Positions 35,892 to 46,429 of a DNA stretch of 64,000 bases are shown here, piece after piece. Under the pieces are notes generated by a model. It saw only the letters and a list, made by a program, of their open reading frames with translations. It had not been told where the DNA came from and searched no databases. Origin of the DNA: Agriterribacter humi (GTDB lineage Bacteria; Bacteroidota; Bacteroidia; Chitinophagales; Chitinophagaceae). Made by a program: the position numbers and the translations under genes. Every line of letters begins with the position of its first letter. Within the stretch, counting starts at the first letter, position 1. The DNA lies in the NCBI RefSeq assembly GCF_009192765.1, contig NZ_VOHQ01000004.1, positions 248,001 to 312,000 on the forward strand, given 5' to 3'.

Positions 35892-35908
35892 TACTAATTA
35901 ATTTAGTA
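35892..35908 (+). promoter_or_regulatory. candidate operator TACTAA-N5-TTAGTA upstream of the EndoQ-like gene
   Basis: TACTAA (35892-35897), five bases, TTAGTA (35903-35908): a perfect inverted repeat ending 9 bp before the ATG. It overlaps a -7-like box (TAATTTAG, 35899-35906). The same 17-bp arrangement occurs at 45961-45977 before the S24 gene. Confidence 0.6.
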
Positions 35909-35917
35909 ACTTCGGTT

Positions 35918-37186
35918 ATGTTTTTTATCGCCGATCTGCATACACATTCGCATTATGCCGGAGCTACCAGTAAATTTCTCTGCCTGGAAACGATGTATCA
36001 GTGGGCATTGATAAAAGGTATTGATGTAGTGGGCACGGGCGACTTCACACATCCGGCATGGATAAAAGAGCTGGAGGAAAAGCTGCAGCCTGCCGGTAAC
36101 GGGTTTTTTACATTAAAGCAACTGCCGGAATTAACTGTGCTGCCCGGCGCAAAGCCACAGGGCAGAACGGTGTACTTCTGCCTGTCAACGGAAGTGAACT
36201 GCGAATATGCAGTAAACGGTAAACAGTATAAGAACCACCATTTAATATATGCCCCGGATTTTGAAACTGCCCGCCACATCAACAAAGCCCTTGCAGGCTA
36301 CGGCGATCTTTCATCCGACGGAAGGCCAACACTCTTGTTACCGGCGCATGAATTGTTGAAAATAGTATTGGATATTGCTCCCCGGGCCTTTTTTGTACCG
36401 GCGCATATATGGACACCCTGGTTTTCAACGCTGGGCTCAAAGAACGGGCATGCTTCGCTTCAGGATTGTTTTAAAGATGTTACGAACGAGCTGTTTGCTG
36501 TGGAAACAAGTCTTTCTGCGGATCCGCTCATGTGTCGGCGGTATGCAGAATTAGATGGGTTAACCCTGCTCTCCAACTCCGACGTGCACTCCGCCCACAA
36601 GCTGGGCAGGGAAGTGAATTTGCTCGATACAGCACAGGATTACGATGCGATGTTCAATGCCTTTAAAACAAAACAGGGTTTCTCCGGAACCTGGGAATAC
36701 TATCCGCAACGTGGCAAATACTTCAACGATGGTCACCGCAATTGCAATATATCATTTGGCGTAGAAGAAGTGCATGATGCTACTTGTCCTGTGTGCCGGA
36801 AGCCGTTGACCGTTGGCGTTGCGCACCGTGTGGAACAATTGGCCAACCGTAGCGAGCAGGAAGCAGCCGGTCAGGTTCAGCCTTTCAAATATGTATTGCC
36901 ATTGCCCGAAATATTTGCTGAGATCGCAGGCTTTAGCGAAAGCAGCTTAAAAGTAAACGCCCTGTATGTAAAAGCAATATCGCATTTTGGTACGGAGTTC
37001 AATATTTTGCACCAGGTGCCCATACAGGATATTCAACGTTATCATCATCAGCTATCCGTTGCTGTTGATCGCCTCCGTCAAAATAAAAAGCATTTCACCG
37101 CAGGTTATGACGGCGCTCATGGCCGCGTCTGGTTTTTTGATAAAACGGAATTAAATACAAAACCCGAACAGATGGTATTGTTTTAA
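35918..37186 (+). CDS. endonuclease Q-like PHP-domain protein
   Basis: A 422-residue protein with an N-terminal PHP metal site (DLHTHSHYAGATS, residues 6-18; GTGDFTHP; HHLIYAP; LSNSDVHSAHKLGRE). A zinc-finger-like cluster follows: Cys at about 275, 290 and 293 (NCNISFGVEEVHDATCPVC), and then a helical C-terminal domain (VAHRVEQLAN). This is the layout of endonuclease Q, which nicks DNA 5' of deaminated or abasic bases and was first studied in archaea. The gene is preceded by a candidate damage operator and a dinD fossil, both of which fit a repair role. Confidence 0.85.
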   Translation: MFFIADLHTHSHYAGATSKFLCLETMYQWALIKGIDVVGTGDFTHPAWIKELEEKLQPAGNGFFTLKQLPELTVLPGAKPQGRTVYFCLSTEVNCEYAVNGKQYKNHHLIYAPDFETARHINKALAGYGDLSSDGRPTLLLPAHELLKIVLDIAPRAFFVPAHIWTPWFSTLGSKNGHASLQDCFKDVTNELFAVETSLSADPLMCRRYAELDGLTLLSNSDVHSAHKLGREVNLLDTAQDYDAMFNAFKTKQGFSGTWEYYPQRGKYFNDGHRNCNISFGVEEVHDATCPVCRKPLTVGVAHRVEQLANRSEQEAAGQVQPFKYVLPLPEIFAEIAGFSESSLKVNALYVKAISHFGTEFNILHQVPIQDIQRYHHQLSVAVDRLRQNKKHFTAGYDGAHGRVWFFDKTELNTKPEQMVLF

Positions 37187-37248
37187 GGATCGCTCAGCCA
37201 TTGACGTTATGAGGTAACGCCCTGCATCCCTCAAAAATAATATTATTG

Positions 37249-37321
37249 AGCCAACTATCGGATTCGAACCGACGACCCTTTCATTACGAATGAAATGCTC
37301 TACCAGCTGAGCTAAGTTGGC
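37249..37321 (-). tRNA. tRNA-Thr(CGT)
   Basis: Complete cloverleaf on the minus strand: acceptor GCCAACT/AGTTGGC, D arm GCTC...GAGC, anticodon arm TTTCA-TTCGTAA-TGAAA with anticodon CGT (reads ACG), and T arm TCGG-TTCGAAT-CCGA. Discriminator U; no encoded CCA. Stands alone, just downstream of crcB on the same strand. Confidence 0.95.
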
Positions 37322-37387
37322 GTAATGTTATTGCTGCAAAATAATGATCAGCAATTAATTGTTGTACACTCCCATTGCCTGAAGCAG

Positions 37388-37759
37388 TTATTTGCCCACT
37401 GCCATTCCACCAATAGTGCACAGCAATCCGGCAAAAATACTTAAACCCGTATACAATGAAAACTGGAGATAATGTCCGTTTTTCAATAAATCTATATTCT
37501 CGTACGAAAAACTTGAAAAAGTAGTGTACCCGCCACAAAGCCCGGTAATTAAAAACAGCCGCCATTCCAAATTCAGCATATTGTTCCTGGAAGCCAGTGC
37601 ATAAAACAGTCCTATTAAAAAGCAGCCGGTAATGTTTACGATAAAGGTTCCGGCAGGAAATACCATAGTAGTGTGCCTGCTTATTGACCACTGCACTACA
37701 TAGCGCAGTATACTGCCAATACCACCACCAATTCCTATAAAGAGTAATTGTTTGAACAT
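37388..37759 (-). CDS. crcB: fluoride channel CrcB/Fluc
   Basis: Small inner-membrane fluoride exporter of 123 residues with four membrane helices; works as a dual-topology dimer. Conserved signatures are present: GIGGGIGSILRYVVQW near the start, VNITGCFLIGLFYAL (pore Asn), and GLCGGYTTFSSFSYEN (the TTFS Phe-box region). No fluoride (crcB) riboswitch is evident upstream; the 108-bp divergent gap to arsR is short. Confidence 0.93.
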   Translation of the reverse strand: MFKQLLFIGIGGGIGSILRYVVQWSISRHTTMVFPAGTFIVNITGCFLIGLFYALASRNNMLNLEWRLFLITGLCGGYTTFSSFSYENIDLLKNGHYLQFSLYTGLSIFAGLLCTIGGMAVGK

Positions 37760-37839
37760 ACCATTCTAAATAAAACCTTCCTACAAAAGGAGTACAAAAA
37801 AAAGAATATTCCCGGAAAACTTTTGATTTTTTAAAATTA

Positions 37840-37855
37840 ATCGTAATATTGCGAT
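37840..37855 (+). promoter_or_regulatory. ArsR operator 1
   Basis: ATCGTAATATTGCGAT, a palindrome of form ATCGnAATATTnCGAT, 13 bp upstream of arsR. It overlaps a -7-like box (TAATATTG). The same element precedes arsM at 38219-38234. Confidence 0.75.
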
Positions 37856-37867
37856 ATAATTACAACG

Positions 37868-38200
37868 ATGGGAGCAACAAAGGCAGAAGAATTTTCGGTA
37901 AAAGACAACAGGGTAGCAAAATATGCCAGGGCACTGGCGCATCCCGCACGTGTGGCCATATTGAAATTATTGATCAATAAGCAGTCCTGTATTTGTGGTG
38001 ATATCGTGGATGAACTGCCGCTGTCGCAAAGTACGGTATCACAGCATTTAAAAGAGCTGAAAGTCGCAGGTTTAATAAAAGGAGATATAGAAGGGGTGAA
38101 GGTTTGTTATTGTATAGATGAAACGGAATGGAACATCGCCAAAAATTACATAAGCGATTTGTTTTCGGCATATAAAGCCGTTGCCGGAAAATGCTGCTGA
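37868..38200 (+). CDS. arsR: ArsR/SmtB family metalloregulator
   Basis: A 110-residue winged-helix repressor that releases DNA on binding arsenite or antimonite. [22 protein letters not shown]. Candidate metal ligands are Cys in [14 protein letters not shown], within the alpha-3 region where ArsR type II proteins bind As(III), and the terminal GKCC. Preceded by a 16-bp palindrome (37840-37855). First gene of arsR-arsM-arsC. Confidence 0.94.
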
Positions 38201-38218
38201 TTTTTTTTGACTCAATCA

Positions 38219-38234
38219 ATCGTAATATTTCGAT
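38219..38234 (+). promoter_or_regulatory. ArsR operator 2, upstream of arsM
   Basis: ATCGTAATATTTCGAT, a palindrome identical to operator 1 except for one central-flank base. It lies 23 bp before the arsM ATG, so arsM-arsC may have their own ArsR-controlled start. Confidence 0.75.
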
Positions 38235-38257
38235 CATACACTTTAAATATTAAAAAT

Positions 38258-39106
38258 ATGCAAACGCAGGAACAACTAAAAGATATAGTAAGGCAGAAAT
38301 ACAGTGAAATAGCCTTGCAGGATAAAGAAGTAAATCAGTCCTCCTGTTGCGGCGCTGGTGGCTGTTCAACCGAAGTATACAATATTATGACCGATGATTA
38401 CAGCCAGGTGGAAGGATATGTGCCCGATGCCGATTTAGGGCTGGGTTGCGGACTGCCCACGCAGTTTGCCAAAATAAAGGAGGGCGATACGGTCATTGAT
38501 CTGGGCAGCGGCGCGGGTAATGATTGCTTTATTGCAAGAGCAGAAACCGGGGCAGCCGGTAAGGTAATTGGTATTGACTTTACACCCGCTATGATTGTAA
38601 AAGCAAAAGCAAACGCTGAAAACCTGGGCTATACCAATGTGGAATTCAGGCAGGGCGATATTGATAATATGCCTGTTGCCGCCGATGTAGCGGATGTTAT
38701 TGTAAGCAATTGCGTGCTTAACCTTGTGCCCGACAAAGCCAAAGTATTTAAAGAAATGTACAGGGTGCTGAAACCCGGCGGCCACTTCAGTATTTCAGAT
38801 ATTGTGCTGGTGGGCGAGCTTCCCGGTAATCTTAAAAAAGATGCCGAAATGTATGCGGGTTGCGTGGCAGGCGCCATTCAAAAGAAGGCATACCTGGAAT
38901 TGATACAGGCGAGTGGTTTTGAAAATATGGTTCTGCAAAAAGAAAAGCCCATCGTCATCCCGGCCGATATACTAAAGAACTATTTGAATGAAGATGAAAT
39001 GGCTGATTTTAAAGCAGGTCACACCGGTATATTCAGCATTACCGTATATGCTGAAAAGCCAGTAGAAGCAAAAGATACCTGCTGTGGTTCGGGATGCTGC
39101 CAGTAA
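38258..39106 (+). CDS. arsM: arsenite S-adenosylmethionine methyltransferase
   Basis: Methylates As(III) to volatile or less retained forms using SAM; 282 residues. SAM motif I is TVIDLGSGAGNDCFIA. The three As(III)-binding cysteines of ArsM are present: DLGLGCGLPTQ, VSNCVLNLVP and YAGCVAGAIQK. An extra CCGAGGCS near the N-terminus and a terminal CCGSGCCQ may bind arsenite or be scavenging sites. I chose the ATG at 38258, since an upstream in-frame start would overlap operator 2. Confidence 0.95.
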   Translation: MQTQEQLKDIVRQKYSEIALQDKEVNQSSCCGAGGCSTEVYNIMTDDYSQVEGYVPDADLGLGCGLPTQFAKIKEGDTVIDLGSGAGNDCFIARAETGAAGKVIGIDFTPAMIVKAKANAENLGYTNVEFRQGDIDNMPVAADVADVIVSNCVLNLVPDKAKVFKEMYRVLKPGGHFSISDIVLVGELPGNLKKDAEMYAGCVAGAIQKKAYLELIQASGFENMVLQKEKPIVIPADILKNYLNEDEMADFKAGHTGIFSITVYAEKPVEAKDTCCGSGCCQ

Positions 39107-39124
39107 TCATTTAAAGTTAAGGGA

Positions 39125-39541
39125 ATGAAGAAGATTTTAGTACTCTGTACGGGCAACAGTTGCCGCAGCCAGATAGCGGAAGGATACCTTGTGCATTTTG
39201 CAGGCGATAAAGCAGCAGTATACAGCGCAGGTATAGAAACGCATGGCGTAAACCCACGTGCGATAACGATTATGAAGGAAGATGGTATTGATATTTCAAA
39301 GCATACTTCCAATAATATGGAGGAATACCGGCGTATTGGGTTTGATTATATTATTACGGTTTGCGACAATGCCAGGGAACGCTGCCCGGTTTTTCCTTCA
39401 ACCGCACAGCAGTTTCATCATAATTTCCCGGATCCGGCAAAGGCAAAAGGTACTGAGGAAGAGATCATGCAGCAATTCAGAAATGTAAGAGATATGATTA
39501 AAGCGTATGCGGATGATTTTGTAAAAGAGAATATACAATAA
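39125..39541 (+). CDS. arsC: arsenate reductase, LMW-PTP/thioredoxin type
   Basis: Reduces arsenate to arsenite in the cytosol; 138 residues. The phosphatase-like P-loop is CTGNSCRSQIAEG (CX5R). The redox pair reads CDNARERCPVFP, giving the three-cysteine relay of the Staphylococcus pI258 type, which is regenerated by thioredoxin. Third gene of the operon, 18 bp after arsM. The operon visible here has no ArsB or Acr3 efflux pump. Confidence 0.96.
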   Translation: MKKILVLCTGNSCRSQIAEGYLVHFAGDKAAVYSAGIETHGVNPRAITIMKEDGIDISKHTSNNMEEYRRIGFDYIITVCDNARERCPVFPSTAQQFHHNFPDPAKAKGTEEEIMQQFRNVRDMIKAYADDFVKENIQ

Positions 39542-39599
39542 CCAGGGCCTGTGTAGGCTTCATGCATATCTTTAGCATTACCGGTGACAGCTATTTTTA

Positions 39600-39646
39600 G
39601 CTGCAGATTCGCAGAAGATTTCTGTGAATCTGCAGCAGTTTTTTTT
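39600..39646 (+). terminator. terminator of the ars operon
   Basis: GCTGCAGATTC (39600-39610) pairs perfectly with GAATCTGCAGC (39626-39636). An inner GCAGAA/TTCTGT extends the stem to about 17 bp, and eight T follow (39639-39646). Confidence 0.9.
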
Positions 39647-39716
39647 AAAATAGGTATACTACAGGCAGCATGGTCATGTCTGCATACTAAATTTCATGTG
39701 CTGTTTTGCTTTGTAA

Positions 39717-40292
39717 TCAGCCGTTTTTATTTTCTTCTTTGAATTTTTTATCGGCCGCAGCCGCTTTTTCAAAGTCAAGTACAACACCGTTAATGCAGTA
39801 TCGCAGGCCGGTCGGCGGCGGTCCATCTTCAAATACGTGCCCCAGGTGACTTTTACAGCGCCCACACATCACTTCAGTTCTTTCCATACCTGCTGTATTG
39901 TCCGGAGCATAAATTATACTGCCTTTGGTAACAGGCTCGTAAAAACTGGGCCAGCCGCACCCGCTTTCAAATTTGGTATCGCTTCTGAATAAGGGATTGC
40001 CGCAAGCCGCACAATAATAGGTTCCCACATCGCTGAACTTTTCGTACTTACTGCTCCATGGTCTTTCCGTTCCTTTTTGCCTCGCTATATAATAAACGTC
40101 TTCGGGCAAAACTTTTTTCCACTCTTCATCACTTAACACAACCTTCGACTTGTCGGAGCGGGAGTACACTTTGTTTTTATTATTTGTATTATCCATATGT
40201 GCTGATGATTTTTTTTGAGGTGGTTGCGAAAAACTACACTGGCAAAAGATCATGGGCGCGAATAACAACGTAAAAAGAGGTTTTATATGCAT
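39717..40292 (-). CDS. msrB: peptide-methionine (R)-S-oxide reductase MsrB, exported
   Basis: Repairs methionine-R-sulfoxide; 191 residues. The zinc site uses CAACGNPL and CGRCKSHLGHVF, and the catalytic cysteine is in LRYCINGVVLDF. An N-terminal signal (MHIKPLFTLLFAPMIFCQCS) points to the envelope, possibly as a lipoprotein. The usual resolving Cys position must be checked by alignment. The ATG at 40292 is fixed by a perfect -7 box at 40316-40323. Divergent from a MarR-type regulator, 144 bp away. Confidence 0.95.
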   Translation of the reverse strand: MHIKPLFTLLFAPMIFCQCSFSQPPQKKSSAHMDNTNNKNKVYSRSDKSKVVLSDEEWKKVLPEDVYYIARQKGTERPWSSKYEKFSDVGTYYCAACGNPLFRSDTKFESGCGWPSFYEPVTKGSIIYAPDNTAGMERTEVMCGRCKSHLGHVFEDGPPPTGLRYCINGVVLDFEKAAAADKKFKEENKNG

Positions 40293-40315
40293 GATCTGTG
40301 ATTTTGACTTTAAAA

Positions 40316-40323
40316 CAAATTTA
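40316..40323 (-). promoter_or_regulatory. -7 promoter element of msrB
   Basis: The minus strand reads TAAATTTG, full match to TAnnTTTG. Start near 40310 gives an 18-nt leader to ATG 40292 and excludes the in-frame ATG at 40337. Confidence 0.5.
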
Positions 40324-40436
40324 CGAAACAATATCAACTACGTTATGTACGATGTTTGACCAAAAAAAATCAACCTCTTTTTTAATATAATGTTAAAAAT
40401 GGTTTAAAAATATATTTTTGCAGCAAAACCATCAGC

Positions 40437-40892
40437 ATGTCCTTAGAAGATGATATCCGCCAACCTTCGTTCCGCAATGAGCACCAAAAAGGCATTATCA
40501 ACATGATCTATACCTGTAACTGGATCATGGCGCGGCAGAAAAATTTTTTCGATCAGGAAAATATTACGCTTCAGCAATTCAATATTCTGCGCATACTCAG
40601 GGGTTCTTATCCAAAGCCTATTTCTACACTTCAGATCAGGGAAAGAATGCTGGATAAAATGAGCGACACCAGCCGTATTGTAGACCGGCTGGTTATAAAA
40701 GACCTGGCAACTAAAAAACCCTCCCTCACCGATAAACGCCTTGTAGACATTGCCATTACCTCAAAGGGCATTGCTATGCTGGAACGTTTGGATCGAAAAA
40801 ATGAAGAAATGGATTCCCTTTTACAAGCGCTCTCGGAGCATGAAGTAAAAATACTGAACCAACTGTTAGATAAGATCAGGAAGCCGGATTGA
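40437..40892 (+). CDS. MarR family transcriptional regulator
   Basis: A 151-residue winged-helix dimer. The HTH and wing read ENITLQQFNILRILRG, then ISTLQIRERMLDKMSDTSR, and the wing DLATKKPSLTDKRLVDIAIT. A -7 box (TATTTTTG) lies at 40413-40420. Divergent from msrB, which makes an oxidative-stress ligand or Cys sensing conceivable, but no cysteine pair is evident. Overlaps nothing upstream; the next gene begins about 40 bp later. Confidence 0.9.
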   Translation: MSLEDDIRQPSFRNEHQKGIINMIYTCNWIMARQKNFFDQENITLQQFNILRILRGSYPKPISTLQIRERMLDKMSDTSRIVDRLVIKDLATKKPSLTDKRLVDIAITSKGIAMLERLDRKNEEMDSLLQALSEHEVKILNQLLDKIRKPD

Positions 40893-40930
40893 TGTATCTT
40901 CCGCTTTATTTATTCCTTTATAATTGCTGC

Positions 40931-42490
40931 ATGAAAGTTCTGCTTATTTTCTGGGCTGCTGTTTGTCCTTTTGTTTTTTGCGCTGCACAACCTAAATATG
41001 AGTTTCGTGCCGCATGGATCGCTACTGTAGACAATATTGATTGGCCGTCAAAGGGAAATTACAATTCCGACAGCCAGAAAGCGGAGTATAAGAAACTGCT
41101 GGATATGCATGTACAAAATGGCATGAATGCGGTTATTGTGCAGATCCGTCCCGCAACAGATGCTTTCTATCCTTCGCCTTATGAACCCTGGAGCGAATGG
41201 CTTACGGGTAAGCAGGGCCGCCCTCCCGTGCCCTATTATGATCCACTGCAGTTTATGATTGAAGAAGCCCATAAAAGAGGACTCGAATTTCATGCCTGGT
41301 GCAATCCTTACAGGGCGGAATTACAGATCGGCAAATCCTCTATTTCACCCACCCATATTACCAAAGTGCATCCCGAATGGTTTGTGGCTTATGGAGGGAA
41401 AAGGTATTTTGATCCGGGTAACAAGGAGGCGCAGGAATTTGTGGTGAATGTGATCCGCGATATTGTTAGCCGTTATGATGTGGATGCCCTTCACTTTGAC
41501 GATTATTTTTACCCTTACAGGATTGCCGGACAGGAATTCCCGGATGATAAAACCTACGCCCAATATGGTTCGGGTATGGACAGGGGCGACTGGCGAAGGG
41601 GTAATGTAGATTCTATCATTGTTAAACTGCACCGCGGGATAAGGCAGGAAAATCCGCATTGCAAATTTGGTATCAGTCCTTTTGGGGTATGGCGCAACAA
41701 AGACAGGGACAGCCTGGGAAGTGATACCAAAGCCGGGCAAACCAATTACGATGACCTGTATGCCGACATATTATTGTGGTTGCGGGAAGGATACATTGAT
41801 TACGTAGTGCCCCAGTTGTACTGGGAGCATGGCCACAGAGCGGCGCCGTATGAAGTGCTGGTAGACTGGTGGAGCCGGCACAGCTATGGCAAACATTGTT
41901 ATATAGGATTAGGTATTTATAAAGCAGGGAGCAATGTACGCTGGCGCGACAGGAATATCATTCCCATGCAAATACGCGATGCAAGATCATACAGCACCAT
42001 ACAGGGGCAGGTTTATTTCAGCAGTAAATCTTTTTTGAAAAACCCTAACGGGTGGAACGACAGTTTGCAGCAGCATTACTATAAATATCCTGCTTTAATT
42101 CCTCCCATGCCGTGGATAGACAGCATACCGCCCAAACCCCCGGTAATCAATACCATCAGCAGCGAAGGAAAAGGATCTGAACAACAGGTCAGGATCAATA
42201 CGGCATATATTGATACAGACAAAAGGCTGCGTCAATTTGCTTTATATGTTTTTCCTTCTTTGGAAAATACCGATATCTCCAATAAAGCGCCATTGCAGAT
42301 CATTCCATCTACTACAGATTCAGCAGATTGCGTGTTGACATTATCGTTGTTGCCACAGCCGCTTTCTTCAGGTAAGGAATTATACATTGGTATTACCGCG
42401 GTAGATATTAACAATGTGGAAAGTGAGATCAGCATACTGCAAAAATTGGAAAGGGCAAATGAAAAATCCGATTGGGAAATAGTGAGGTGA
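40931..42490 (+). CDS. secreted GHL10 family glycosidase-like protein
   Basis: A 519-residue secreted protein of the GHL10 (formerly DUF187) group. The signal peptide ends PFVFCAAQPK. The TIM-barrel domain has RAAWIATVDNIDWPSKG, then VQIRPATDAFYPSPYEPWS, HAWCNPYRAE, LHFDDYFYPY and GISPFGVWRN; the Asp pair of HFDDYF is the likely catalytic region. A small beta-sandwich domain follows (about 410-510). Substrate not known for most members; some act on peptidoglycan-derived glycans. ATG 40931 gives a clean signal peptide. Confidence 0.9.
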   Translation: MKVLLIFWAAVCPFVFCAAQPKYEFRAAWIATVDNIDWPSKGNYNSDSQKAEYKKLLDMHVQNGMNAVIVQIRPATDAFYPSPYEPWSEWLTGKQGRPPVPYYDPLQFMIEEAHKRGLEFHAWCNPYRAELQIGKSSISPTHITKVHPEWFVAYGGKRYFDPGNKEAQEFVVNVIRDIVSRYDVDALHFDDYFYPYRIAGQEFPDDKTYAQYGSGMDRGDWRRGNVDSIIVKLHRGIRQENPHCKFGISPFGVWRNKDRDSLGSDTKAGQTNYDDLYADILLWLREGYIDYVVPQLYWEHGHRAAPYEVLVDWWSRHSYGKHCYIGLGIYKAGSNVRWRDRNIIPMQIRDARSYSTIQGQVYFSSKSFLKNPNGWNDSLQQHYYKYPALIPPMPWIDSIPPKPPVINTISSEGKGSEQQVRINTAYIDTDKRLRQFALYVFPSLENTDISNKAPLQIIPSTTDSADCVLTLSLLPQPLSSGKELYIGITAVDINNVESEISILQKLERANEKSDWEIVR

Positions 42491-42516
42491 GCGTGAAAGT
42501 TTGAAAAAAGCTACAA

Positions 42517-43350
42517 TTAAAAAATAAACTTCATTCCCCCTGATTTGTTATTGGCAACTTTTTGCGAATTATTTTGTACAGGATTTTGCGAAGTCTGATG
42601 CATTTCCTGTTTCATCCTGTTGATAGAGGTCTGAATAAAAAAAGATGATATTACATTTAAATCATTGTGCTTATGTGAAAACTTAAGTGCATTAATATAC
42701 TCCTCTTTTTGTTTTGCTTCGATGATAACATATGGGTGGCCGGCTTTAGCCAGAATAAAATTTGACAAGAGTCGTCCAAGTCTGCCGTTACCATCAGGAA
42801 ATGGATGGAGATAGATAAAATATTTGTGGAATTTGGCAGCTATTTCAATTGGATGGACTGTTTTTTTTTCTAATGCTGCTTGTGTCTGCTCCATTAAAGC
42901 CGGCACGTTGGCGATGCTGGTTTCATGATCAGGAAATATGGTGTCGCCTGCTGCCATCCTTGATTTGGTATATTCTCCCGGTGCATAACCTTTGGTATAT
43001 TGAATCGTATTATTAGTAAGCAGCTTATGCGTATCTACCAGCAATTGTTCTGTCAGAGGTAATTCCAGGTTAGTAAACAGGTATTCAAAAGCTTTAAAGT
43101 GGTCTAAGATTTCATAGGCTTCAAGCATGGATTTATTCTGAAGCTTCAGATTAAGCCCATGCTCTTTCAGTTCCTTTGTGTCGTTGACAGAAAAGCTGTT
43201 GCCTTCTATCGCGCATGAATGAGCTGAAAGGAGGATTTCATTGTATTCAAAAAGGGTTTCTTTGGAAAATGTGGATGTTACTCGTTTGTATTGTTCAAGC
43301 GTTGATTGATACTCAGTTAAGAGCTTTTCTATTGTATGATCATTACTCAT
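42517..43350 (-). CDS. Fic family protein (class II, self-inhibited)
   Basis: A 277-residue Fic enzyme that should transfer AMP (or another nucleotide group) to a protein hydroxyl. The active-site motif is canonical: HPFPDGNGRLGR at about 178-189. The inhibitory helix motif SCAIEGN (S45, E49, G50) is N-terminal, which marks class II Fic proteins whose glutamate blocks ATP until relieved. A flexible Gln/Asn-rich tail follows. No antitoxin gene is adjacent, so a toxin-antitoxin role is not shown. Confidence 0.93.
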   Translation of the reverse strand: MSNDHTIEKLLTEYQSTLEQYKRVTSTFSKETLFEYNEILLSAHSCAIEGNSFSVNDTKELKEHGLNLKLQNKSMLEAYEILDHFKAFEYLFTNLELPLTEQLLVDTHKLLTNNTIQYTKGYAPGEYTKSRMAAGDTIFPDHETSIANVPALMEQTQAALEKKTVHPIEIAAKFHKYFIYLHPFPDGNGRLGRLLSNFILAKAGHPYVIIEAKQKEEYINALKFSHKHNDLNVISSFFIQTSINRMKQEMHQTSQNPVQNNSQKVANNKSGGMKFIF

Positions 43351-43464
43351 TATGTGACGGTATACTATTAATGTACAATAAAAACGTGATTTTCAAAGAT
43401 TTGTTTTGATGCAAAGTTAGGCAATTATGAATGTTATGTTTAGCAGTCATAGTAAGGATTTATG

Positions 43465-44574
43465 CTAAAACAATCTCCCCTGTTGTCCCGGTCTTCTGAA
43501 AATGGTAGTATCCAATTCAAAACGGTCTTCATTCATGTGATACATTTTGCCGTATTTTTTATATTGTTGCGTTATAATCTCCGCTATGGCGCCTTCTCCC
43601 CGCATACGCAGTCCCCAGCGGGTATCGTTCACTTTGCCATCGTGACTTTGCTCAATTAAATGCCATACTTTATCGGCTCTGTCGGGGAAGTTTTTATACA
43701 GCCAGTCGTGAAACAAAAACTTGATAGCGCCATTTAAACGGATGAAAGTATAGGCGGTAAATACAGCGCCCACATCTGCGGCGGCTTTCATGATGCGCTG
43801 CATTTCGTGATCATTGAGCCCCGGGATCATAGGGCCCATCATCACACCCATGCGAATGCCGGCACTGCTTAGCTCTTCAATTACTTTTAGTCGCTGTTTG
43901 GCAGTAGTGGTGCGGGGTTCCATTACCCTGCGCAAATCTTCATTAAAGGAAGTGATGGAAACCATTGCCGATACCAGTCGCTTTTTGGCCAACTCCTGCA
44001 GTACATCCTTGTCTTTAATGATCCATGCGTTTTTGGTAAGGATTCCTACCGGCTGGTTGAATTCATTGCATACTTCAAGCAGCCCCCTGGTTAACCGGTA
44101 TTTTTGTTCGGCGGGCTGGTAACAATCGGTATTGCCACTCAGCATAATGGGCATTACCTCCCACCTGGGATGCATAAGTTGCTTTCGCAACAACTGTGGC
44201 GCATTTTTTTTAACGATGATCTTTCGTTCAAAATCCAATCCTGCACTATAGCCCCAGTATTCATGTACGTTGCGGGCATAGCAGTAAATGCAGCCATGCT
44301 CACAGCCGGCATACGCATTCATGCTGTAAGCCATGCCCACATCCGGGCTCTCTACTTTATTTACAATGGTTTTTGAAAGTTGTTCCAGGTATTGTGTGGG
44401 CGTGTTGTCTTCCGACCAGTCGTCAATGGCTTCCACGTGTTCCCTCGTTCTTTCGTCTTTAAGAAAACGGTTCTTGGTATTGAACTGGGCGCCGCGACCC
44501 TGTAAATATTGCTCTGCCTCCTCTTTTTCTTTGGCGGAAACTTTATAATGATCCTGCTTAAGTTTTTCTGACAT
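43465..44574 (-). CDS. radical SAM protein, PA0069/SPL-related family
   Basis: A 369-residue radical SAM protein. The 4Fe-4S motif lies in AGCEHGCIYCYARNVHEYWG (CxxxCxxC). GILTKNAWIIKDKDVL and RTTTAKQRLKVIEEL follow. The family, related to spore photoproduct lyase, is of unknown function, although repair of nucleic-acid lesions has been suggested. It stands near a run of DNA-related genes but is not in an operon with them. Confidence 0.9.
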   Translation of the reverse strand: MSEKLKQDHYKVSAKEKEEAEQYLQGRGAQFNTKNRFLKDERTREHVEAIDDWSEDNTPTQYLEQLSKTIVNKVESPDVGMAYSMNAYAGCEHGCIYCYARNVHEYWGYSAGLDFERKIIVKKNAPQLLRKQLMHPRWEVMPIMLSGNTDCYQPAEQKYRLTRGLLEVCNEFNQPVGILTKNAWIIKDKDVLQELAKKRLVSAMVSITSFNEDLRRVMEPRTTTAKQRLKVIEELSSAGIRMGVMMGPMIPGLNDHEMQRIMKAAADVGAVFTAYTFIRLNGAIKFLFHDWLYKNFPDRADKVWHLIEQSHDGKVNDTRWGLRMRGEGAIAEIITQQYKKYGKMYHMNEDRFELDTTIFRRPGQQGRLF

Positions 44575-44667
44575 AAAATTGATTCAAACTTGTTAATAAA
44601 ATGGGATTAATGTCGAACTCATCTTCTTTGCGTACGATCAGATAATCTGAAAAATTACATACTTTTT

Positions 44668-44818
44668 GTTTTGAAACACGGTGTCACAGAGACATAAAGA
44701 CACGGAGGATGTTTTGTCTTTACTATTCTTATTTTTTTGAAACACCCGCGCGCAAGGCGCGGGAAATGCCTTTGTTTTCTCTGTGCCATAGTGTCTCCGT
44801 GTCCCTTTGTTCCAAAAC
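44668..44818. repeat. palindromic CAC-GAG repeat beside the broken GxxExxY gene
   Basis: The left arm (44668-44709; GTGTCACAGAGACATAAAGA, then CACGGAGG) and the right arm (44778-44818; CTCTGTGCCATAGTGTCTCC) are imperfect inverse complements built on CACnnAGnCAC. A GC-only hairpin CCCGCGC-GCAAG-GCGCGGG lies between them (44744-44762). It is the same family of sequence that borders the intact GxxExxY gene at 31537-31929. The gap 44575-44833 has no gene. Confidence 0.7.
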
Positions 44819-44833
44819 CAATTTGCGCGTTCA

Positions 44834-45247
44834 TTACATAATCATTCTTTTAATTCCCTTTTTCATCAGGGGTACATTAAAATTTAATATATAGCCTAAA
44901 CGTTTTCCACTTAGTTTCAAATAACTCAATACCTGTGCGTCCCATACAGGATGGTAATACTCTTGTGCTTTTAATTCTACAACAACCAATCCATCTACAA
45001 GTAGATCAATCCGCAGGCCTTCATCAATTACCAGTCCATCATATTGTAACCGGACAGTCTTTTGCCTTTCAAAAGGAATATTTCTTTTACCCAATTCATA
45101 GCAGAAACACTTTTCATATACACCTTCCATTCATCCGGGGCCAAATGCCCTATGAATGCAGATTGCGATATCTATTATCTGGTTAGCTAACCACTGCTCT
45201 CTTGCTGTAAGTGGATCGAAATCTTTTTGCTCACTACTATTTACCAT
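44834..45247 (-). pseudogene. GxxExxY gene with in-frame stop
   Basis: The frame runs from ATG 45247 to a stop at 44834 (138 codons), interrupted only by TGA at 45133-45131 (codon 39). The stop replaces the first x of the name motif: GPG, stop, MEGVYEK. Everything downstream is intact, including GLRIDLLVDGLVVVELKAQ with the nuclease-like Asp and ExK. A protein from the ATG at 45130 would lack the first helix, so I call it a pseudogene, although the damage looks recent. Confidence 0.88.
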
Positions 45248-45306
45248 TGACGTCTTCTATTTTAAATCAGCTCATGTTGTTACAATAGGGCGGCATGTCC
45301 GGGCAA

Positions 45307-45921
45307 TTATCCAAACAATTCTCCCTGTATTGTGGCTACCGGTAAGTTCTGGAACGCAAACCGTTGTACGATCTGGTATGCTTTTGTGTTTTGTGCCCGT
45401 TTCAGCAGCAGCATGCCATCCGCAATAAAGCGCCCGGTAAAGTGTTTGTTGCTGTATGCCAGCCATGCTTTTTCATATTGCCAGGGCTGCAGCTTGCGCG
45501 CAACCGTTACATGCGGTTCCATAATAAAATGCGGCTTGTTCTCCTCATTTAATTTCATTAGCCGTTGCGTTTCACTGCGCACCTGTTTAATAAGGTTTTG
45601 CACCGGCACTTTTGTTACCACATTAATATATATGGTGTGCGAAGGAAAGCTGCCATAGTCGCGCAGTTCCGCCTTAAACGGATACTGCCCCATGCCTACC
45701 GCTTTGAGCCGGTTCACAATCCGTGCTTCCATCATTTCGTATTGCACAAAAGTTGCCAGCGTAATGTGCGGCTTGCCCCACCTGGCTTGCGCACTCTGGT
45801 ATGTTTCAGCAAATTCTTCTTTTACTTTTACAATCTTATTCCATACTTCTTCCGGCGGGCTCAGCACCAGCAGGTATTCATTAATGCGATAGCCGGGCAG
45901 CATTTGAATATTATGTTCCAT
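45307..45921 (-). CDS. 2'-5' RNA ligase / 2H phosphoesterase family protein
   Basis: A 204-residue 2H-phosphoesterase. The two HxT motifs are PHITLATF (about 60-67) and PHVTVARKL (about 150), which set the catalytic histidines. Relatives ligate or hydrolyse 2'-5' or cyclic phosphate bonds in RNA (ThpR, CPDase, YjcG-like); the exact activity cannot be told. Divergent from the S24 gene, with the TACTAA/TTAGTA operator in the 73-bp gap. Confidence 0.88.
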   Translation of the reverse strand: MEHNIQMLPGYRINEYLLVLSPPEEVWNKIVKVKEEFAETYQSAQARWGKPHITLATFVQYEMMEARIVNRLKAVGMGQYPFKAELRDYGSFPSHTIYINVVTKVPVQNLIKQVRSETQRLMKLNEENKPHFIMEPHVTVARKLQPWQYEKAWLAYSNKHFTGRFIADGMLLLKRAQNTKAYQIVQRFAFQNLPVATIQGELFG

Positions 45922-45931
45922 AAAAAACCAT

Positions 45932-45977
45932 TTTGAATGATCAAATATTTAGTATAAATTTACTAAAAATATTAGTA
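45932..45977 (+). promoter_or_regulatory. promoter and double operator of the S24 gene
   Basis: TTTG (45932-45935), 19-bp spacer, TAAATTTA (45955-45962; one mismatch to TAnnTTTG). The -7 box is covered by the palindrome TTTAGTA-N6-TACTAAA (45948-45967) and followed by TACTAA-N5-TTAGTA (45961-45977), the same arrangement as before the EndoQ-like gene at 35892-35908. A repressor bound here would block transcription, expected to start near 45969. Confidence 0.65.
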
Positions 45978-45994: not shown

Positions 45995-46429
45995 ATGGAC
46001 GGCGAAATGGTGCTCAATACTGCTTACAATGGTTCAAAACGCTTTACACAATGGAATGTGGATCATGCCAACGCCACAGGTTTCGGCGCTGCCGCGGATG
46101 ATTATATGGAAAGAGGCATCGATTTGAATGAGCAACTGATCCGCAACAAGCCCTCAACTTTTTTAATGAAAGTAAGCGGGGATGCAATGATTGATGCGGG
46201 CATATTCAACGGTGATATTGTAATTGTTGACCGGTCGGTAAAAGCCGCTAACGGTAAAATAGTAATTGCCATACTCAATGGGGAAATGCTGATCCGCAGG
46301 CTGGAGAAAACTTTTAATAAAACGAGACTGATACCGGAAACACGCAAGCTGTCGCCTATAGATATAGACCTGGCTGCTGCAGATTTTTCAATATGGGGTG
46401 TGGTTACTTATTGTATTCATGCAGTATGA
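45995..46429 (+). CDS. UmuD-like S24 peptidase-fold protein without the Ser-Lys dyad
   Basis: A 144-residue protein that reads along its length as UmuD (YMERGIDLNEQLI; VSGDAMIDAGIFNGDIVIVD; GKIVIAILNGEMLIRRL). The catalytic Ser of GDSM is Ala64 (codon GCA at 46184-46186), and the position of the UmuD catalytic Lys is Arg101; the 37-residue spacing equals that of Ser60-Lys97 in E. coli UmuD. The Ala/Cys-Gly cleavage site is TG here. No umuC or dinB gene follows. A binding or regulatory role without self-cleavage is likely. Confidence 0.88.
   Translation: MDGEMVLNTAYNGSKRFTQWNVDHANATGFGAAADDYMERGIDLNEQLIRNKPSTFLMKVSGDAMIDAGIFNGDIVIVDRSVKAANGKIVIAILNGEMLIRRLEKTFNKTRLIPETRKLSPIDIDLAAADFSIWGVVTYCIHAV

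Follow-up and report, generated by a model that had tools for sequence, protein, structure and literature searches.

The 64,000-nucleotide window of Agriterribacter humi DNA considered here (contig NZ_VOHQ01000004.1, positions 248,001 to 312,000) contains two exact copies of the inverted repeat TACTAA-N5-TTAGTA, one in front of a gene for an endonuclease Q-like (EndoQ-like) protein and the other in front of a gene for a UmuD-like protein that lacks the S24 catalytic dyad. The first palindrome, TACTAA-TTAAT-TTAGTA (TACTAATTAATTTAGTA, 35892-35908), lies 9 bp upstream of the ATG at 35918, and the second, TACTAA-AAATA-TTAGTA (TACTAAAAATATTAGTA, 45961-45977), lies 17 bp upstream of the ATG at 45995; neither is assigned a strand. 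Both had been described with these distances in an earlier note on this DNA, and a pattern search confirmed them. The expected number in the window is 0.02 (standard deviation 0.14), and none of 100 shuffled sequences contained two copies. The signal was confined to exact palindromes, as sites with up to two mismatches numbered four against 3.5 expected.

The genes downstream bear out the DNA-damage connections that the note had proposed for them. The PHP-family protein encoded at 35918-37186 (+ strand, 422 aa) matched three solved structures, all of them EndoQ, with E values from 2e-39 to 8.6e-39, and the best of these, PfuEndoQ from Pyrococcus furiosus (5zb8, E 2e-39), aligned over residues 5-406, indicating full-length homology. 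The same protein had no Pfam match, and its TIGR00375 score of 125 bits did not reach the curated threshold of 326.6. Positions H8, H10, D42, E92, H107, H163, D222, H224, C276, C290 and C293 were invariant in four sequences; their roles in the metal site and zinc region are presumed from those of the PHP family. The window protein shares with the Pyrococcus enzyme its full-length similarity, the His/Asp/Glu residues of the PHP core and the Cys positions of the zinc region, but it is bacterial and rare, has what we read below as an SOS box upstream, and carries His in place of the first zinc-region Cys.

The second gene (45995-46429, + strand) encodes a protein of 144 aa that matched the UmuD family NF007621 (129.2 bits, cut-off 110). 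In an alignment to Escherichia coli UmuD', Ala64 replaces the catalytic Ser, Arg101 replaces the Lys, and Thr28-Gly29 occupies the cleavage position; neither the Ser-Lys dyad nor the Cys-Gly or Ala-Gly cleavage site of a self-cleaving UmuD was found. The protein resembles E. coli UmuD in its S24 fold, as judged by sequence, in its N-terminal arm, in its co-occurrence with UmuC and in its apparent SOS control, and differs from it in the missing Ser and Lys, in having Thr-Gly for Cys-Gly, and in that umuD and umuC are unlinked in this genome. A single-sequence fold prediction (mean predicted local distance difference test score, pLDDT, 33.8) was useless and was set aside.

Each of the two genes also has a -7-like element. 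On the + strand, TAACTTCG (35907-35914) begins with the last two bases of the EndoQ operator, and TAAATTTA (45955-45962) is the candidate element of the umuD promoter; both were named from the sequence TAnnTTTG, which we take to be the -7 consensus. Directly 3' of the box, TAnnTTTG was present in 5 of the 11 printed loci of EndoQ relatives, and TAnnTTCG in 2. The second palindrome and -7 box that the note had placed before the S24 gene are present, the palindrome facing outward (TTTAGTA-TAAATT-TACTAAA, TTAG..CTAA; 45948-45967, no strand). The most plausible reading is that it marks where a degenerate upstream operator, ATCA-AATAT-TTAG (ATCAAATATTTAG, 45940-45952, no strand, two mismatches in the 8 core bases), meets the main umuD operator 23 bp downstream, because related umuD promoters show a tandem operator spacing: a TTAG stands 14 bp 5' of the CTAA in 36 of 50 of them, two exact cores are found in only 3 of the 50, and in one (L045) both operators are exact and 23 bp apart.

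The core of these palindromes, CTAA-N5-TTAG, is the SOS box of the non-canonical LexA of Bacteroidetes published in 2021, and the sections of that paper covered here report a CI-like S24 repressor exclusive to Bacteroidetes, binding of repressor to operator in P. actiniarum by electrophoretic mobility shift assay (EMSA) with site mutants, induction by mitomycin C, and large regulons in families that include Chitinophagaceae (PMC8565304). The suggestion in the earlier note of a different damage-regulon operator therefore stands insofar as this is a damage operator of Bacteroidota, but the operator is not new: a new operator class was rejected because the motif is already published, and the operator and its repressor class are already known (PMC8565304). 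The A. humi genome encodes a candidate of this class, a 251-aa protein with an N-terminal helix-turn-helix (HTH) domain, HTH_3, and a C-terminal Peptidase_S24 domain (G000:C12:603910-604662). Its own gene is preceded by two operators 24 bp apart, the nearer of which is overlapped by the ATG by one base, and a relative at 90% identity (L293, genome G028) likewise has two operators before its gene. Inspection of the translation by eye, with no alignment to a published member, showed an Ala-Gly site (AAAGY) and the dyad motifs GDSM and VYKR. At E values up to 0.001, relatives of the repressor, weak paralogues among them, were found in 93 of 98 genomes of the family. Apart from the repressor, UmuD was the one Peptidase_S24 protein found in the genome, and it was rejected as the regulator, its sole Pfam match being Peptidase_S24, with no HTH.

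A scan of the whole genome (5.69 Mb, 34 contigs) for the 17-mer and the CTAA-N5-TTAG core found six exact 17-mers, five of which precede either the repressor gene or genes of repair or SOS type. Besides those before the EndoQ, UmuD and repressor genes, one lies 42 bp before parE (Pfam gyrase B and Toprim) and another 46 bp before an imuA-like open reading frame (ORF) followed by imuB-like and dnaE-like ORFs; these three were identified by eye and from their position, and the first of them has no Pfam match. The umuC gene, which is on a different contig from umuD, has a 17-mer with one mismatch but an intact core 19 bp upstream, and the shorter core was found 21 bp before uvrA and 66 bp before recA (named by eye). 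The presence of the box before the repressor's own gene, umuC, recA, uvrA, parE and the imuA-like gene supports the proposal that one damage regulator serves both genes of the window. The motif, its spacing and an HTH plus S24 repressor with autoregulatory operators are the same as in the published system, as are the targets umuD/umuC, recA, imuA-imuB-dnaE2 and parE, reported there for Chitinophagaceae; differences are that a word search of its main text, supplement not covered, found no COG1379, endonuclease Q or PHP, and that its covered sections do not report loss of the UmuD dyad (PMC8565304). As separate observations, a core located 32 bp upstream of vsr, a mismatch endonuclease gene (L087, G000:C34), may be chance or a further target, and a tRNA-Arg gene (L070:3879-4260, G000:C1), with three incomplete copies of its sequence behind it (recognised by eye), is some 650 bp away from the sixth of the exact operators.

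EndoQ is known mainly from archaea, and it was rare in the genomes surveyed: 4 of the 98 genomes of the family had a match, and at the level of the class 3 of 395 did, one of these matches being weak. At the EndoQ locus, genome G060 of this family matches Deminuibacter soli, a species of Chitinophagaceae, without a difference over 500 nt, which was the basis for assigning the host to Chitinophagaceae. Its presence in archaea and some bacteria has been described in the part of the literature consulted (PMC11354406). The EndoQ locus set was the best 80 of 369 relatives in the genome collection, 19 of them from Bacteroidota by record title and 61 from other phyla, with one locus (L129) added to the counts from a separate promoter listing. 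An exact core was found within 200 bp upstream of 11 of the 19 Bacteroidota genes and nowhere else in the same loci (134,224 bases), and in 10 of these 11 it ends about 11-15 bp before the start codon (59 bp in the other). All eight relatives at 68-88% identity carry the core; among the other eleven, three have it and two have a core with one mismatch, at -34 and at -91, the latter possibly by chance. Of the two EndoQ genes in the assembly ACE_BAC12, L123 carries the box and L140 does not. The core was absent from all 61 loci of other phyla, even with one mismatch allowed. Three motifs that we take to be of LexA type (GAAC-N4-GTTC, CTGT-N8-ACAG and GTTC-N7-GTTC) were tried before those 61 genes and each scored 0 of 61; a loose GGA-N5-TCC preceded 7 of them. 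The unboxed genes L139 and L140 share an imperfect upstream palindrome, TTTTGACTAAATTTGrTCAAA, which is perhaps another operator.

Taken together, these data make it highly likely that both palindromes of the window are Bacteroidota SOS operators that regulate the EndoQ and UmuD genes and are most likely bound by the HTH_3 plus S24 repressor, and the two genes very probably share this regulator. Several points weigh against such an interpretation. Of the six exact sites, one has nothing but a 105-aa orphan ORF with no Pfam family downstream, 148 bp away; 16 of the 40 genomic cores lie inside ORFs of at least 100 aa; the imuA-like and recA identities were assigned by eye; allowing one mismatch still leaves 6 of the 19 Bacteroidota EndoQ genes without a core; and no exact core was found within 250 bp of the EndoQ gene of genome G104. 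The genome-wide enrichment anticipated in the earlier note did not appear by count, since the 17-mer at up to one mismatch had 15 sites in the whole genome against 64 for the reversed control pattern, and the core 40 against 126. Because the raw counts are below those of the reversed control, the evidence was taken as position and gene identity; the regulon signal is the position of the sites and the identity of the genes that follow, rather than frequency. It was also borne out by conservation upstream of orthologues (51 of 52 umuD genes, described below, and the 11 of 19 Bacteroidota EndoQ genes).

The rarity of EndoQ in the family and the 8 of 19 Bacteroidota EndoQ genes with no exact core upstream would both fit a reading in which only the umuD box is a genuine SOS operator, the palindrome before EndoQ having arisen by chance in AT-rich upstream sequence. 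We regard this as extremely improbable, given 11 matches in 3.8 kb of upstream sequence against none in 134 kb of flanks, the absence of three control palindromes upstream of the same 19 genes, and the near-constant distance of the core from the start codon. Another thought is that some other factor binds the palindrome, as the case for repressor binding here is made from sequence and further HTH proteins of the genome match the repressor's HTH weakly. Against it stand the paired operators before the repressor's own gene and before that of its relative L293, the lack of an HTH in the only other Peptidase_S24 protein, and the EMSA with site mutants in the published relative (PMC8565304, sections covered), so this too seems very unlikely. 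With the S24 repressor as the regulator, binding to CTAA-N5-TTAG beside or over the -7 region would block transcription, and upon DNA damage a RecA filament would trigger self-cleavage of the repressor and free both promoters. Once made, EndoQ would be expected to nick DNA wherever a base is deaminated or a site is abasic. UmuD would pair with UmuC, whose gene lies elsewhere behind a box of its own, to form a translesion polymerase resembling DNA polymerase V (pol V), which here would be encoded at two loci tied by the shared box. Repression and RecA-driven release are carried over from the published relatives and fit the anatomy of the sites; together with the enzyme activities, we infer them from the sites, their conservation, the gene identities and the repressor domains.

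The loss of the dyad is not peculiar to this genome. UmuD matches were present in 63 of the 98 family genomes, and 52 of them, the window protein included, were classed as type A (at least 51% identity, our own cut). The catalytic Lys is Arg in all 52, at the position of the catalytic Ser 48 have Ala, 3 have Ser and 1 has Thr, and the P1 residue is Thr in 47, Asn in 4 and Ser in 1. From 25 further UmuD matches, 18 sequences were taken as type B, seven weak ones being left out. Thirteen of these have the arm and retain both Ser and Lys; the other five (L262, L263, L267, L268 and L271) start, by script, at Met-(G/A/L)FPSP, like a ready-made UmuD', and have lost the Lys in all cases, with Ser replaced by Ala in two and by Asn in one. 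Their open frames span 124-137 aa, against 143-173 in the thirteen, and therefore little or no arm is possible. In type B the dyad therefore goes with the arm, a rule that type A breaks by keeping the arm without the dyad. Mean pairwise identity in type A was 0.56 for the arm and 0.63 for the body, compared with 0.26 and 0.50 in the thirteen type-B proteins; for 20 proteins outside the family that have the dyad, the values were 0.28 and 0.55. An NF051876 match presumably points to ready-made UmuD' proteins of the kind we take to be called HumD; these are likewise UmuD relatives able to do without self-cleavage, but they lack the arm, whereas the window protein has a full, conserved one. The five short type-B proteins of the same family look HumD-like.

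An exact core precedes 51 of 52 type-A umuD genes (50 of 52 with an alternative placement of the starts, which were chosen by script) and 14 of 18 type-B genes. Outside the family it preceded none of 39 rows (37 genes, with duplicates G531 and G580), a set covering a minority of the matches listed in 306 of 395 genomes. A second dyad-less group was found in a family of another class (f90), in which all 16 UmuDs fetched had lost the dyad (14 Ala/Arg, 2 Gly/Arg); these make up 16 of the last 20 of the 39 rows, were picked after two members had shown the loss and are not a random sample. The f90 proteins (L272-L283, L286, L287, L290 and L291) have Thr-Gly, and no CTAA-N5-TTAG core lies upstream of their genes. 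In a UmuD tree of 80 rows, which included every second type-A row (26 of 52), type A formed one group with support of 100/100 and the f90 proteins a group apart from it (99/93); the deep branches were weak, and dyad loss is for this reason counted as one or two origins. No type-A UmuD was found in viral contigs.

The type-A proteins keep company with UmuC. A close UmuC was encoded in all 52 genomes with a type-A UmuD, and of the 53 genomes with that UmuC only one, G043 (83% complete), had no type-A UmuD. The two genes are operon-like in 34 pairs, in the same order 300-1200 bp apart in 7, otherwise within 3.5 kb in 7, and apart or on different contigs in 4 genomes, this one included. The A. humi UmuC carries DUF4113 at its C-terminus, where a partner of UmuD is expected to have its UmuD-binding region. 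From these patterns we infer that pol V works in the type-A lineage without self-processing of UmuD, being gated by transcription and its partners, not by UmuD-to-UmuD' conversion. A competing account has the dyad-less UmuD acting as a permanent brake, or being cleaved by some other protease, with the uncut protein not serving pol V. The conserved arm (0.56, against 0.26 in dyad-bearing relatives) would fit that account, although any arm-based function would explain it; the close UmuC in every genome and the 34 operon-like pairs argue the other way, as does the lack of a second UmuD in this genome for cleavage in trans, though the repressor is itself an S24 protein. We hold the competing account to be possible but doubtful. 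Activity without cleavage is favoured because the arm and the link to UmuC are both kept and no other UmuD is present in this genome; it would need a compensating change in UmuC. It seems reasonably probable that in Chitinophagaceae, always together with UmuC, and separately in a Bacteroidota family of another class, UmuD has become non-self-cleaving, such that SOS-controlled pol V operates without the RecA-driven UmuD-to-UmuD' step, with the arm as a permanent docking element and the dose set by the SOS box, and that some of these bacteria also took EndoQ into the regulon, adding excision of deaminated bases.

Other genes of the window touch on these subjects less directly. The radical SAM gene at 43465-44574 (PA0069 family), which we take to be near SplB/COG1533, an SOS gene elsewhere, was tried as a third target and rejected, as no site with up to two mismatches was present near its start. 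An arsenic-like cluster, recognised by eye, occupies 37868-39541 and comprises an ArsR-type regulator and arsenite methyltransferase-like and arsenate reductase-like proteins, and a Fic/DOC family protein (PF02661) is encoded at 42517-43350.

In the textbook view, mutagenic pol V is gated post-translationally by the self-cleavage of UmuD. Here is a lineage that appears to have kept pol V and its SOS control and seemingly dropped the gate, making the need for that gate directly testable. A clade-wide dyad-less UmuD that keeps its arm looks new from the sequences compared here, as none was found in the literature listings or in the covered sections of the SOS study (PMC8565304), its supplement and most subscription papers lying outside them. 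The shared operator is itself already explained. EndoQ as an SOS target looks new as well, the literature listings containing no paper that links the two. If true, EndoQ would gain a damage-responsive role, for which named soil bacteria, Deminuibacter soli among them, offer a test.

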